Assembly: GCA_029194675.1 (NCBI GenBank)
Contig: JARFXP010000003.1
Location: 62,001-126,000, forward strand
Length of the DNA: 64,000 bases
From: Nitrospira sp.
GTDB taxonomy: Bacteria; Nitrospirota; Nitrospiria; Nitrospirales; Nitrospiraceae
Direction of reading: 5' to 3'
Both the position numbers and the translations under genes were made by a program. The notes under the pieces were generated by a model that did not search any database, was not told the origin of the DNA, and was given only the letters and a program-made list of their open reading frames with translations. Position 1 is the first letter of the stretch. Each line of letters starts with the position of its first letter. Below, one piece after another: positions 32,328 to 37,100 of this stretch.

Positions 32328-32414
32328 TTACTTTTCACCGTCAAGGAACACCGCCTTATACATAAATCCAAAAACAGCGGTCAGCGCGAGCAAGGCAAAA
32401 AATATAGTCGTCAC
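32328..32414 (-). CDS. Small membrane protein 1 of palindrome-linked set (28 aa)
   Basis: GTG start at 32414, with GGGAGGTG about 6 nt upstream. The 28 codons read as a hydrophobic helix (TTIFFALLALTAVFGFMYK) followed by a short charged tail (AVFLDGEK). Too short for ordinary gene calling. A TATACT box lies ~30 bp upstream of the start, and the TGAAGA-NN-TCTTCA palindrome is 68 bp upstream of the start. KdpF-like subunits are similar in size, but no kdp genes are nearby. Predicted single-pass inner-membrane protein of unknown role. Confidence 0.55.
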   Translation of the reverse strand: MTTIFFALLALTAVFGFMYKAVFLDGEK

Positions 32415-32472
32415 GGTACGTCACCTCCCTTCACTCAATGGGGAGTATACCGCTCAAAGATGAATGATTGAT

Positions 32473-32509
32473 GATGAGATCGTGAAGAAATCTTCATCAT
32501 TCAACGATC
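32473..32509 (-). promoter_or_regulatory. Palindromic operator-like element, site 1
   Basis: The core TGAAGA-AA-TCTTCA (32483-32496) is a perfect palindrome. Flanking GATGAGATC on one side matches site 2 exactly. On the minus strand it lies upstream of small membrane protein 1, with its likely -10 box between. The adjacent two-component system is the natural candidate regulator (inference). Confidence 0.6.
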
Positions 32510-32905
32510 CTGACTACTCTACCCGATTGAATTGGTCCGTATGAAACAGGTGGTCGATGTCTGGAAACCTTCAAGGAAGAATTGGTCGGTACAAATGGGA
32601 GAGTCCAATGAGCGCGCTTCTTATGTTTTGGAAGGACTTGGAAGATGGTGTGGAGCAGCCTCAGGCTTCACGAACCTCCGGATTGGAAGTAAGAAGCCCC
32701 AATCCAATACCGACCAGATCTCACGATGTTGCACTTATGACCAATTTACACTGCACCACAACATCAAGAACCAAGCGGAAGACGCTTTCTCTGCAGTGGG
32801 CGATCCCGATCACCAACGCGTGGTTTTCGACAGGATCTTCTATGCCGACTTCCAGTTACACCCTACAACCCGTCGTTCTACGGCATCGCCCATAGCCAGG
32901 TTCTG
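32510..32905. other. Gene-free stretch, nothing supported
   Basis: About 395 bp between site 1 and small membrane protein 2. Frames on both strands lack ribosome sites and family features. It may hold decayed coding sequence, but I cannot name it. Confidence 0.35.
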
Positions 32906-32986
32906 TCACCTTCGGGCGAGCTGCAACATTGTGTACAGTACTCCGAATATTCCGGCCACTATGAAGACTTCGATGAGGGAAATCAT
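32906..32986 (-). CDS. Small membrane protein 2 of palindrome-linked set (26 aa)
   Basis: ATG at 32986 with AAAGGAGGTGA a short distance upstream, one of the strongest ribosome sites in the window. The 26 codons give a hydrophobic helix (MISLIEVFIVAGIFGVLYTM) and a basic end (LQLARR). Its upstream region carries a perfect TGAAGA-NN-TCTTCA palindrome 71 bp before the start, almost the same spacing as for protein 1. Single-pass inner-membrane protein, N-out/C-in by the positive-inside rule (inference). Confidence 0.55.
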   Translation of the reverse strand: MISLIEVFIVAGIFGVLYTMLQLARR

Positions 32987-33047
32987 GCTAGAAGCTCACC
33001 TCCTTTTACTTTCCTCATTAGGTACGCTTTCAAGATGAAAACTCCAT

Positions 33048-33083
33048 GATGAGATCATGAAGACTTCTTCATTATTGGCGATT
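33048..33083 (-). promoter_or_regulatory. Palindromic operator-like element, site 2
   Basis: The core TGAAGA-CT-TCTTCA (33058-33071) is a perfect palindrome with the same GATGAGATC flank as site 1. On the minus strand, both sites continue GATCTCATCAT, then after 7-8 nt a second TCATCTT. The element is upstream of small membrane protein 2. Confidence 0.6.
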
Positions 33084-33219
33084 CTCAGGAAATTCGATAT
33101 TCTCGTTAAGGAGAATAAGACCCCCAATATGTAGGCATCTTAAAAGAAGGTGAAGCGAACAGTCGGATTTTCCCATCGGATATTCCAGCCACATCCCTCG
33201 TCCGGTCCGTTGAAGGTTC

Positions 33220-33456
33220 TCAACGCGGTGTAAATATGGGACACCCGGGTATGAAGCAAACCGTGCAGCGTGTATCTTCTTTGCGTGATGCCATAACGCT
33301 CTCGTCAAATGTCGTGAGAGAGATCACCCGACCTGCGGTCTCGCCGGTGTCACGAACTGCTCTTCCGGCCAAATGCGTTCCCACGATGATCGCTTGTCCG
33401 AGTCCCACAATGATATACGGAAAACAAACCATTGAAGCAGCGATGATATTTGCCAT
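33220..33456 (-). CDS. Small membrane protein 3 of palindrome-linked set (78 aa)
   Basis: ATG 33456 is preferred, with AAGGAGG upstream; an ATG at 33501 has no ribosome site. It has an N-terminal hydrophobic helix (IIAASMVCFPYIIVGLGQAI, extending into IVGTHLAG), a soluble middle (RAVRDTGETAGRVISLTTFD) and a cysteine-bearing C-terminal end (RCTVCFIPGCP). The C-x2-C plus C pattern could bind metal or form disulfides. It is preceded by a palindromic element of the same type as proteins 1 and 2. No known family. Confidence 0.5.
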   Translation of the reverse strand: MANIIAASMVCFPYIIVGLGQAIIVGTHLAGRAVRDTGETAGRVISLTTFDESVMASRKEDTRCTVCFIPGCPIFTPR

Positions 33457-33506
33457 TACTTTGGAATCCTCCTTAAAAAGAAAATAACCAATTAACAGCA
33501 AGACAG

Positions 33507-33553
33507 GATGAAGTCAAGGTGAAGAGCTTTTTATGTGAAGAGCTCTTCATCCC
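33507..33553 (-). promoter_or_regulatory. Palindromic operator-like element, site 3 (double)
   Basis: The core TGAAGA-GC-TCTTCA (33536-33549) is a perfect palindrome. A second, imperfect copy (TGAAGAGCTTTTTA, 33520-33533) lies 16 bp closer to the gene. Then, on the minus strand, CTTCACCTTGACTTCATCC forms a direct repeat of CTTCA with 11-bp period, as is usual for OmpR-family binding. It is upstream of small membrane protein 3 and downstream of the sensor kinase gene. Confidence 0.55.
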
Positions 33554-33895: not shown

Positions 33896-35314
33896 CTAAG
33901 CAGGAACCGTCTGCTGGGCGAGGGCTGGTAAACGCAGGGTGAAGACAGAGCCTTTGTTGACTTCGCTGGTGACGGAAATACTACCTCCATGAGCATCCAT
34001 GATTTCTTTCACGATGGGCAATCCAAGGCCGGTACCGGCGGAATCTTTCGCTCGGGCCCAATCAGTGCGGTAGAATCGCTCGAACAGATGGGGAATATGC
34101 TCCGGTTCGATGCCATGCCCCGTGTCCTCGACGGCCACGGTGACCTTGGAACTGATTGTTTGTAGGCGAACCGTGACGGAACCGCCGGATGGGGTGTACC
34201 GCAGCGCATTGTCGAGCAGATTGATCAGCGCCTGTTTGAGCCACTGTACATCGCCGAGGACGGACGGGACCGGTTGGGACTCGAATGTCAGGGCAATCCG
34301 GTGGTCATCCGCCAAGAGCATCAGTTCATCCACGATCTCTTGAATCAGCGGCTCCAAGGCTAGCGGGACAAGATTGACCGGCGGTTTGCTACTGGTAAAT
34401 TTCGCCAAAGTCAACAATGGGCGAGTCAAGGCGATGAGCCGATCCACTTGCTGGAGGTTGTTGAGCAGCACCTCGTGATATTCTTCGACGGTCCTCGCTT
34501 TCATGAGCGCGACCTCCAGGTTGCCCCGCAAGATGGTCAAGGGGGTTTTCATCTCGTGTGCGGCGATTTCGCAGAAGTTCCGTTGAACTTCGCTGCCTCG
34601 CTGGAACCGATCCAAGACGGAGTTGACCGCCTGGGTCAGTCGACGAAATTCGCGGTGAGGTGAATCCACCGCCAGCCGTTTTCCGAGATCGGCTTCCGAC
34701 ATCGTTTCGGCGCCCGCGCATAAGGCCTCGATCGGGGCCAGCACCTTCTTTGACAGCCAGAGGCTTCCGACCCAGGCGACAAAAAGAGTGGCCCCGGATC
34801 CCAGAGCCAGCAGAAACACCAGACCGTTCAGAGTTTCACGATAGTGGAGCAATGAGGCTTCGGCTTGCAATACGTACCGCCGTTGACCGCCTTGTGCGAC
34901 GGACAGAAACAGTTGTCGAGCGGGGACGCTGGTCGAGTCGACAGTTTCGAACACTGCGTGGTCACGCTGGAGTCGCTGCAGGACGTCGGCAGAAATCGAC
35001 GACTGCGTCTCGGCATGGGAACTTTTCCAGAGGAGCCGACCATCTATGGAGAAGACGCGAAGCGAATGAGGAACTTCAGGCAGCTCATATGACCGCCGCA
35101 CGTCTGCCCGCAGGCCATCCTGGCTGCCCTGATCGATAAGATCAGGATGCCGCTTCACAATATCGGCAAGCGTCTCTGCCAACGCGAAGAGCCGTCCGTC
35201 CACAAAACGATGCAACAATACCTCGCTGACGGCGTACACCAGCGCCGAAAACACGAGGAGCCCCGCCAGCAAGACGAAGGCGGACCAGCTGATCAAGCTG
35301 CGGAGCGATTTCAC
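33896..35314 (-). CDS. Two-component sensor histidine kinase
   Basis: 472 residues. TM1 at ~11-33 and TM2 at ~163-187 enclose a periplasmic sensor of ~130 residues. HAMP at ~188-240. The HisKA phospho-acceptor is His253 (EIAAHEMKTPLTILRGNLEV). HATPase_c has N box NLLDNALRYTPSGGSVTV and G boxes DTGHGIEPEH and GTGLGLPIVKEI. The layout resembles CusS/heavy-metal and OmpR-coupled kinases; the signal is unknown. The start codon overlaps the stop of the response-regulator gene by 4 bp (translational coupling). Confidence 0.93.
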   Translation of the reverse strand: MKSLRSLISWSAFVLLAGLLVFSALVYAVSEVLLHRFVDGRLFALAETLADIVKRHPDLIDQGSQDGLRADVRRSYELPEVPHSLRVFSIDGRLLWKSSHAETQSSISADVLQRLQRDHAVFETVDSTSVPARQLFLSVAQGGQRRYVLQAEASLLHYRETLNGLVFLLALGSGATLFVAWVGSLWLSKKVLAPIEALCAGAETMSEADLGKRLAVDSPHREFRRLTQAVNSVLDRFQRGSEVQRNFCEIAAHEMKTPLTILRGNLEVALMKARTVEEYHEVLLNNLQQVDRLIALTRPLLTLAKFTSSKPPVNLVPLALEPLIQEIVDELMLLADDHRIALTFESQPVPSVLGDVQWLKQALINLLDNALRYTPSGGSVTVRLQTISSKVTVAVEDTGHGIEPEHIPHLFERFYRTDWARAKDSAGTGLGLPIVKEIMDAHGGSISVTSEVNKGSVFTLRLPALAQQTVPA

Positions 35315-35994
35315 GGAGGCGTTTTCGGCTCTTCGAGCATATATCCCGCGCCGCGGACGGTGGCGATCAAAGGCGGCGAAAAGTCACGGTCGATCTTGGA
35401 GCGCAGGGCCCGAATATGAGTGTCGACGATGTTCGTCATGGGGTCATAGCTGATATCCCACACATGTTCGATGATCGCCGTTCGAGTGAGCACCCGATTC
35501 TTGTTCCGCAGCAAGAACTCAAGCAGGGCATACTCTTTATTCGTCAACGAGATTTCCTGTCCTCCCCGCCAGACGCGGTGAGCAGCAGGGTCCAATCTCA
35601 AGTCGGCCGCCTGCAGGTGAGCGAGCTGCTGGGAACTGCCTCGGCGCAGCAGGGCCCTGATTTGAGCCAGCAGTTCCACGAACGCGAATGGCTTGGGCAA
35701 AAATTGATCCGCTCCGGTATCAAATCCGGAGACTTTGGTCTCCAGCGTGTTGCGCGCCGTCAATAGGAGCACCGGAGTCATGATTCCTTTGTCACGAACT
35801 CGGCGGCAGAGGGTCAAACCGTCAAGCTTCGGCAGCATAACGTCGAGAATCACGAGATCGTAGGGGTTGTTCAGCGCCAACGCCAAGCCTGCTTCGCCGT
35901 CGGCTGCAACGTCCACCGCGTAGTACTCTTCTTTCAATCCTTTTCTTATGAATTGAGCAAGATCCGCATCGTCTTCAACGAGCAGAATTCTCAT
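35311..35994 (-). CDS. OmpR-family response regulator
   Basis: 227 residues. Receiver domain with acidic pair D8-D9, phospho-acceptor Asp51 (LVILDVMLPKLDG) and the conserved Lys in FLPKPFAF. The C-terminal winged helix (LTNKEYALLEFLLRNKNRVL, VDTHIRALRSKIDRDF, TVRGAGYML) is OmpR/PhoB type. First gene of the operon with the kinase. OmpR-family proteins bind direct repeats with about 11-bp period, as seen in part of site 3. It is the likely regulator of the three small membrane-protein genes downstream (inference). Confidence 0.95.
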   Translation of the reverse strand: MRILLVEDDADLAQFIRKGLKEEYYAVDVAADGEAGLALALNNPYDLVILDVMLPKLDGLTLCRRVRDKGIMTPVLLLTARNTLETKVSGFDTGADQFLPKPFAFVELLAQIRALLRRGSSQQLAHLQAADLRLDPAAHRVWRGGQEISLTNKEYALLEFLLRNKNRVLTRTAIIEHVWDISYDPMTNIVDTHIRALRSKIDRDFSPPLIATVRGAGYMLEEPKTPP

Positions 35995-36045: not shown

Positions 36046-36663
36046 TCAGCAGAGGCTGCTCTTGCAATCCGTGACCACCAGGTTGGTTGCTTTTTCGTCG
36101 GCTTCGAGGTCCATGGTCAGCCAGGCGATTCCCATCGCCCGCTCATCCTGATGGGCTCCACCACTCCCCTCAAGGAGACTGACGACATAATACCGGCCGC
36201 CGGGAACTTTCGTGAACCAAAAATGACCGGTTGGATTGGCTCTCGTCGTACGGAGATAGGGAATCAGACGTTTATCGGTCAGCAGTTGGGCCATGATCTC
36301 CCGAAGGCATTCCACAGGCGACCCCTGAGTCATGAGGGGTTCTGAAGACGAGGCCCCACCTTTGAGAGGGCAGGAGTAATCCCGCACATTCTTATCAAAC
36401 CAATAGCGAGTATATGGAACCATTGGAATCAAGTAGATCGAGGCTCCCGCCTGCGTCACGGCTCTTCCAGAGGGTGTGCGCAAGAACACCTGTCCGGCCG
36501 CACTTCCCCGACCTTTCGCTCTGTAGGCGAAGAATTCTTTCTCGTTGAAGGACGGTGGGCTCGATGAGCCCGACGCCACCGCCTGTGCCGGTGTGACAGG
36601 GAAGCCGCTGATCAGCAACAACCCTGCAAGCCAGAACCTGAGTTGCCTGTCACGCCACGTCAT
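36046..36663 (-). CDS. Secreted hypothetical protein
   Basis: 205 residues. Signal peptide (FWLAGLLLISGFPVTPAQA) then a mature part with GQVFLRTPSGRAVTQAGASI followed by YLIPMVPYTRYWFDK, and GHFWFTKVPGGRYYVVSLLE, the pattern of a carboxypeptidase-regulatory-like (prealbumin-type) beta domain. Two pairs of cysteines may form disulfides. It overlaps the start of its stretch with the FTR-like gene by 4 bp (36660-36663), so the two are co-transcribed, FTR first. Confidence 0.7.
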   Translation of the reverse strand: MTWRDRQLRFWLAGLLLISGFPVTPAQAVASGSSSPPSFNEKEFFAYRAKGRGSAAGQVFLRTPSGRAVTQAGASIYLIPMVPYTRYWFDKNVRDYSCPLKGGASSSEPLMTQGSPVECLREIMAQLLTDKRLIPYLRTTRANPTGHFWFTKVPGGRYYVVSLLEGSGGAHQDERAMGIAWLTMDLEADEKATNLVVTDCKSSLC

Positions 36664-37100
36664 GTCGAGGAAGCCGACGCTGCGGCGGGCTCGTCGGGCA
36701 CGGTTGAAGGCGGGAGGGATTTGTGTTTGAGGGCGCGGCCTTTGTCCGGGGTCGGATCGGTGACAAGACCATACACTTCGCGACCTTCGTGGCCATCCGG
36801 CAAATATTCCGTAATCGGCATCCCATCTTCACGAACAAACAGGAGACAATGACAGTACTTGTAGATCTGCATTTCGTCGCAGGCGCAGATCCAGCGTCGG
36901 AGCTTGGCTTCGGCTTCTTTGTCCTTGTAAAAGTTGCAAGGGCAGAGCGGTTTCCCGAGTTCGTCGATATGGGACGCTAATCCCTTGACCACCGCCTCCG
37001 TCACGGCAGTATTGGGGTGCATCGCGGTTCCGCTTTTTTCAGCAAAACCCTGTACGAACTTCCTGATCTTATCGAGGCTTTCCTGCGTCGGTTCGGCCAT
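36660..37100 (-). CDS. Ferredoxin-thioredoxin reductase catalytic subunit (FTR beta-like)
   Basis: 146 residues. Cysteines are arranged C53-P-C55, 16 residues, C72-A-C74, 8 residues, C83-H-C85, which is the exact spacing of the FTR catalytic subunit (CPC-x16-CxC-x8-CHC). These bind a [4Fe-4S] cluster next to a redox disulfide. The family second motif is CPC; here it is CAC. FTR passes electrons from reduced ferredoxin to thioredoxin. The variable FTR alpha subunit is not in view. In an operon with a secreted protein. Confidence 0.85.
   Translation of the reverse strand: MAEPTQESLDKIRKFVQGFAEKSGTAMHPNTAVTEAVVKGLASHIDELGKPLCPCNFYKDKEAEAKLRRWICACDEMQIYKYCHCLLFVREDGMPITEYLPDGHEGREVYGLVTDPTPDKGRALKHKSLPPSTVPDEPAAASASST

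Follow-up and report, generated by a model that had tools for sequence, protein, structure and literature searches.

Two short genes in a 64-kb stretch of Nitrospira DNA (hereafter the window, meaning the whole stretch analysed) are each preceded by a copy of a common operator-promoter unit of about 55 nt, and a third small gene is preceded by the same elements out of register. We estimate a probability of about 0.8, judging from sequence, that this module serves the adjacent response regulator as its operator-promoter and works by class II activation. Comparison of the sites S1 and S2 on the minus strand defines the layout: a palindrome ATGAAG-NNNN-CTTCAT, TCA repeats at +11 bp and again at +22 bp and, 10 nt past TTCAT, a -10 box. 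All three sites lie on the minus strand downstream of the sensor kinase gene, with one short ORF behind each (Table 1).

Table 1. Positions of the module copies, their parts and the associated genes in the window
Feature	Position	Strand	Basis or remark
Gene 1, type B microprotein	32328..32414	-	28 aa, GTG start, one hydrophobic helix; translation, relatives behind same module
S1 operator-promoter module	32442..32500	-	54.9 bits to profile R1; leave-own-out matrix 66.1
S1 -10 box	32449-32444	-	TATACT
S1 TTCAT	32464-32460	-	
S1 TCA	32474-32472	-	
S1 palindrome	32483-32496	-	
Gene 2, type A microprotein	32906..32986	-	26 aa, one hydrophobic helix; translation, relatives behind same module
S2 operator-promoter module	33017..33075	-	53.6 bits to profile R1; leave-own-out matrix 65.4
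S2 -10-like box	33024-33019	-	TACCTA
S2 TTCAT	33039-33035	-	
S2 TCA	33049-33047	-	
S2 palindrome	33058-33071	-	
Gene 3, type C small protein	33220..33456	-	78 aa, C-terminal CxxCFIPGC motif; translation, 8 other loci
S3	33481..33551	-	18.7 bits with 5-nt gap; matrix 24.5 gapped
S3 candidate -10 box	33486-33481	-	TATTTT, if second palindrome in register
S3 imperfect palindrome	33520-33533	-	2 mismatches
S3 perfect palindrome	33536-33549	-	
S3 CTTCA repeats		-	11-bp spacing
Sensor histidine kinase, proposed regulator partner	33896..35314	-	HAMP, HisKA, HATPase_c (Pfam); best NCBIfam TIGR01386
OmpR-family response regulator, proposed binder of modules	35311..35994	-	Pfam; best NCBIfam TIGR01387

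The first-pass annotation had described S1 and S2 as continuing identically beyond the palindrome, and they do: TGAAGA-NN-TCTTCA is followed by one variable base, by GATCTCATCAT and, after a spacer, by TCATCTT. The spacer, given there as 7–8 nt, is 7 nt in both sites. The AT-rich -10-like box that it noted for gene 1 is found behind S1 as TATACT; the corresponding box of S2 stands in the same register but is weaker. Its view of a single promoter architecture present in several copies is supported by the S1/S2 unit and its relatives. Site S3, which it had called differently built, does hold an imperfect palindrome 16 bp nearer the gene and CTTCA repeats with an 11-bp period, but no separate design emerges, as these are the elements of S1 and S2 out of register: a weak copy is in register, and 16 bp above it stands a perfect palindrome.

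The register of S3 can be read in two ways. To fit the site, profile R1 needs 5 nt inserted between repeats 1 and 2, and the matrix score is 24.5 for this gapped reading versus 8.0 for the second palindrome read ungapped. Gene 3 is encoded at eight other loci, seven of which carry TTCA-type repeats at its promoter; at L085 (42% identity) none were found there. Repeat spacing is ordinary in most of these, and L066 shows just the second arrangement, with the decayed left half seen in the window and, judged by eye, TA where the -10 box is expected. L066 speaks for the second palindrome, yet the matrix speaks for the gapped reading; we lean towards describing S3 as a weak in-register module plus an extra perfect palindrome upstream.

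The exact 12-base pattern TGAAGA-NN-TCTTCA occurs three times in the 64 kb, versus about 0.004 occurrences expected by chance (4^-12 arithmetic), and at six places in the whole genome (5.2 Mb, 16 contigs), three of them in the window. With at most one mismatch, the palindrome is found at 28 places, compared with 7 for a reversed-pattern control. Scored with a matrix derived from 70 sites outside the window's own genome, S1 and S2 rank first and second in the window, the next best score being 8.9. One exact palindrome, at C5:4382, was rejected as a module and taken as a chance occurrence: it lies inside a cytochrome c ORF, without repeats, and has no profile match. Behind the profile match at C2:972672 (27.6 bits) no convincing gene was found. 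A terminator or RNA hairpin was discarded, given the position of the palindrome upstream of the -10 box at fixed spacing to it, and a mobile repeat was discarded on account of the fixed register before genes and the small number of exact palindromes in the genome.

To describe conservation, distinct sites from related loci were chosen by the palindrome alone (at most one mismatch), giving 74 sites; L087 +2810, L085 +1348 and +2125, S3, one site before the L119 kinase, a site with an N (L102) and identical duplicates were left out. TCA is present at +11 in 72 of the 74 sites and at +22 in 73, and the TA of the -10 box keeps a constant distance (T in 72/74, A in 73/74). In a thinned set of 28 sites with less than 75% identity, the respective counts are 27, 27 and, for TA, 26, whereas the upstream flank from -12 to -5 is nearly free in the 74-site table (0.07–0.28 bits). 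Because TCA at +11 and +22 is nearly invariant in sites selected by the palindrome, the right half of the palindrome opens a series of three direct repeats that follow at intervals of one helical turn, with the left half as an inverted fourth. The two comparisons that the first-pass annotation had proposed are both favourable to it: homologous loci retain the repeats, with the palindrome downstream of the kinase in 53 out of 58 loci of the comammox type (of the five without it, two offer less than 250 nt of downstream sequence), and the arrangement follows OmpR-type repeat logic with an 11-bp period.

The neighbouring response regulator has the two parts that define the OmpR/PhoB family, a PF00072 receiver and a PF00486 Trans_reg_C domain, both above cut-off. 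Its best NCBIfam match, TIGR01387 (CzcR/SilR/CopR), reaches 254.0 bits, below the cut-off of 279.2, and that of the kinase, TIGR01386 (CztS/SilS/CopS), reaches 249 bits, below 292.55. Because the TIGR01387 score falls under the cut-off, we describe the pair as a two-component system that would work like CopR/CusR and CopS/CusS, and not as a filed member of the heavy-metal subfamilies. Little of a conserved His/Met cluster for copper was found in the sensor, where only His83 (55/56) and His157 (50/56) stand out. The profile search found no module upstream of the window's own response regulator operon. Upstream of the regulator and in the same direction, positions 36046-37100 (minus strand) encode a ferredoxin-thioredoxin-reductase-like protein (PF02943) and a 205-aa protein with no Pfam match; this gene pair perhaps forms one operon with the two-component system.

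Across the genus, a close kinase ortholog (68–89% identity) occurs in 59 of 79 genomes, the window's own counted, being split in G022 into two pieces of 88 and 63% identity; five further genomes carry homologs of 45–47%. The profile search places the module, at E ≤ 1e-4, in 69 of the 79 genomes, including all 59 with a close kinase ortholog, although these E-values are rough and the sites used for building, including many kinase-locus matches, match by construction. None of the ten module-free genomes has a kinase match above 31% identity. This co-occurrence is partly built in, because the module usually sits within the kinase locus. A tie to the regulator that is independent of this shared locus is indicated by the five non-comammox genomes with 45–47% homologs, since there the module heads a PepSY-DUF2231-RR-HK operon, whose DUF2231 member is a membrane protein, at six of six kinase loci, about 1.7 kb upstream of the kinase; neither AMO nor AmoC was matched in these five. 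At two comammox-type loci (L095, L109), a weaker set of repeats precedes the response regulator ORF, and five loci with 50–55% kinase homologs of the N. defluvii type (L113, L114, L115, L117 and L118, the last with just 169 nt downstream) have no palindrome.

AMO (PF02461) or AmoC (PF04896) is present in 62 of the 79 genomes. Close kinase orthologs occur in 57 of these versus 2 of the 17 others (G026, G032; Fisher p = 3e-10, relatedness ignored), the AMO/AmoC-positive genomes without one being G006, G019, G029, G036 and G043; the genomes are mostly MAGs, and assembly gaps may explain absences. The named records with close kinase orthologs are mostly Nitrospira and include CG24A/B and UW-LDO-01, which we take to be comammox. 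In the window's own genome, AMO is matched twice and AmoC seven times, in some cases by pieces. At G000:C4:299876-300551, the PF04896 match of the amoC of the amoCA cluster is broken in two, one part containing an in-frame TGA; this gene could be a pseudogene or the result of an assembly error.

These distributions bear on whether the two-component system is a mere neighbour of a module bound by another regulator, be it an OmpR-family protein encoded elsewhere or an alternative sigma factor. Five genomes with modules yet no kinase match of at least 45% (G006, G029, G036, G043 and G057) are in line with this, as are the poor -10 boxes at S2 and S3 and the fact that TTCAT-N10-TA is readable as a sigma-specific promoter. 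However, the five are MAGs (completeness 76, 78, 90, 94 and 99%) in which gaps are possible for some at least, the palindrome with its one-turn phasing is operator-like, and the RR-HK operon is itself headed by the module at all six of the non-comammox kinase loci; we therefore consider another regulator unlikely.

In the window's own genome, the module stands before genes 1–3, the Slp lipoprotein gene on contig C6 (PF03843) and, on C4, an ORF with amoC behind it. Elsewhere in the genus, 60 module regions, sorted by hand among the matches listed after removal of kinase-adjoining sites and 14 other listed sites, lead to a microprotein (31), an amoD-like gene (10), slp (10), a DEAD-box helicase operon (3) or other genes (3), and three are unclear, one of them at a contig end. 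By coordinates alone, and again among the matches listed, the module lies 0.7–0.8 kb upstream of amoC in at least 10 genomes (the window's own, G004, G006, G056, G058, G063, G064, G066, G074 and G076); at the comammox-type loci L086 and L077, a weaker module directly precedes a singleton amoC adjoining the kinase. At L207, L227, L234 and L251, the module is ahead of an operon of a small ORF and a DEAD-box helicase, and at L237 (G006 C15), judged by eye, two modules lead into small lipoprotein-like ORFs and a TonB-receptor-like ORF follows further on.

The C4 ORF matches PmoD (6cpd, E = 2.1e-8), and in its family (11 sequences) C56 and C81 are invariant and the motif Cx9HxnC is kept; the ORF product also retains a C-terminal helix. 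Because of the PmoD match and the retained motif, it is predicted to be an AmoD-like protein and the operon an amoD-amoC singleton. Its structural model, inspected for a cupredoxin fold and of low confidence (mean pLDDT 60.7), has eight strands and a C-terminal helix, and a Foldseek search with this model returned no match at E ≤ 0.001. Between the amoCA genes and this operon lies an ORF (L018 9892-11697, own genome C4) that we take, from its sequence, to be FtsH-like.

The microproteins of types A and B are 24–32 residues long and contain, besides a single hydrophobic helix, a loosely kept GxxY motif, and no match beyond noise was found for them in Pfam, NCBIfam or PDB. In type A (41 sequences, 26 codons), the differences by codon position are 6.6, 3.7 and 10.4 for positions 1, 2 and 3, which points to a coding sequence under selection. 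The slp leader resembles a decayed type B microprotein by eye at ten loci (L198, L200, L202, L205, L208, L209, L211, L217, L221 and L240), and so does the N-terminus of the AmoD-like protein resemble type B; a gene-start fusion is possible at both the slp and the amoD-like genes. S1 and the slp-linked C6 site are 74% identical across 133 nt, extending into the ORF, and for this reason at least one module copy seems to have moved along with its gene start.

Taking the two-component system as the regulator, we infer its binding, activation and use of the targets as one regulon as follows. The partner kinase would phosphorylate the response regulator, one dimer of which would occupy the palindrome, centred at about -53 of a predicted start (computed from the position of the -10 box). 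A second dimer would bind half-sites that follow in tandem and in phase, TCA at +11 and TTCAT at +22, which would stand in for a -35 box, and RNA polymerase would be recruited at the -10 box just beyond. This switch would drive the small envelope-protein genes of the window in comammox Nitrospira and, in the same genome, would also act ahead of the slp lipoprotein gene and the amoD-amoC singleton operon, as one regulon.

The same geometry could instead serve repression, with the regulator covering the -35 region of ordinary sigma-70 promoters and reducing or blocking transcription, as the good -10 box of S1 and the overlap of the repeats with the -35 place might suggest; however, no -35 consensus is seen at the expected place in the 74-site table, and the spacing to the -10 box fits class II activators, among them PhoB. 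AgrR, in the available text of PMC7380067, fits this spacing as well, and a repressor appears quite improbable. That the repeats are leftovers of a recent gene-start duplication, kept by descent under no selection, agrees with the resemblance of S1 to the C6 site and with the slp leaders, but is disfavoured by the flank control, as the flanks are nearly random and the repeats almost invariant in the 28 thinned sites, and the module is carried by unrelated genes, which makes this reading very improbable.

Beyond class II activation by the neighbouring regulator, a wider picture can be offered tentatively, and we regard it as rather doubtful: a regulon extending across comammox, where a single CopR/CusR-like system that responds to copper or to the condition of the AMO membrane would induce both spare AMO parts (amoD-amoC) and single-helix proteins of 24–32 residues, a new family acting as accessory subunits of AMO or the envelope, the microprotein promoter and gene start having been repeatedly copied and fused before slp and amoD. 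That copper, or the AMO/envelope state, is the signal is a guess; copper would fit the family resemblance and the AmoD-like target, but the sensor has no conserved Met/His cluster, which makes it less likely. Little is known about the control of ammonia-oxidation genes in comammox Nitrospira, and the module offers a concrete operator, a candidate regulator and a gene list that includes a singleton amoC. It thereby predicts a regulatory circuit of ammonia-oxidising Nitrospira that extends to spare subunit genes of the ammonia-oxidising enzyme, and it brings to light a conserved microprotein family that has no match in the libraries searched and falls below the usual annotation length.

In the pho box of PhoB, tandem repeats one helical turn apart replace the -35 element about 10 nt ahead of the -10 box. 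The repeat layout of the module is alike, whereas the pho box is not known to contain a palindrome and differs in sequence and targets. The palindromic operators of the heavy-metal response regulators CusR, CopR and CzcR of Pseudomonas and E. coli resemble the module, and TGACAA-NN-TTGTCA of E. coli shares the 6-2-6 layout of TGAAGA-NN-TCTTCA; in contrast, their metal-resistance regulons are very small and tandem repeats go unmentioned in the available part of PMC11195947. The AmoD-like protein shares two cysteines and a C-terminal helix with the copper proteins PmoD and AmoD, but has Cx9HxnC in place of Cx7MxHxnC; in the portion of PMC6189053 at hand, a member with Cx9HxnC binds copper and has no CuA site or features. 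The singleton amoC3 of Nitrosomonas europaea is under stress control by a stress sigma factor, and singleton amoC is said to occur in all comammox genomes, their control not being described in the accessible text (PMC6311188). The likeness lies in a singleton amoC under stress-type control, whereas here a two-component operator is predicted and amoC is paired with an amoD-like gene.

We found no description of the module itself in the open-access literature searched, most subscription papers being outside the scope of the search. Its closest counterpart is the operator of AgrR of Cupriavidus metallidurans, likewise a CopR-type OmpR-family regulator, which binds inverted and in-phase direct repeats, needs both and has been proposed to occupy a type II activator position (available text of PMC7380067). 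The half-site letters differ, the extra direct repeats of AgrR are imperfect and present at some operators only, whereas two near-invariant ones are found here, and its targets are silver/copper resistance genes instead of microproteins, slp and amoD-amoC (PMC7380067). The operator architecture is already known from AgrR, and the comammox regulon and the microproteins appear, within the searches made, to be new.
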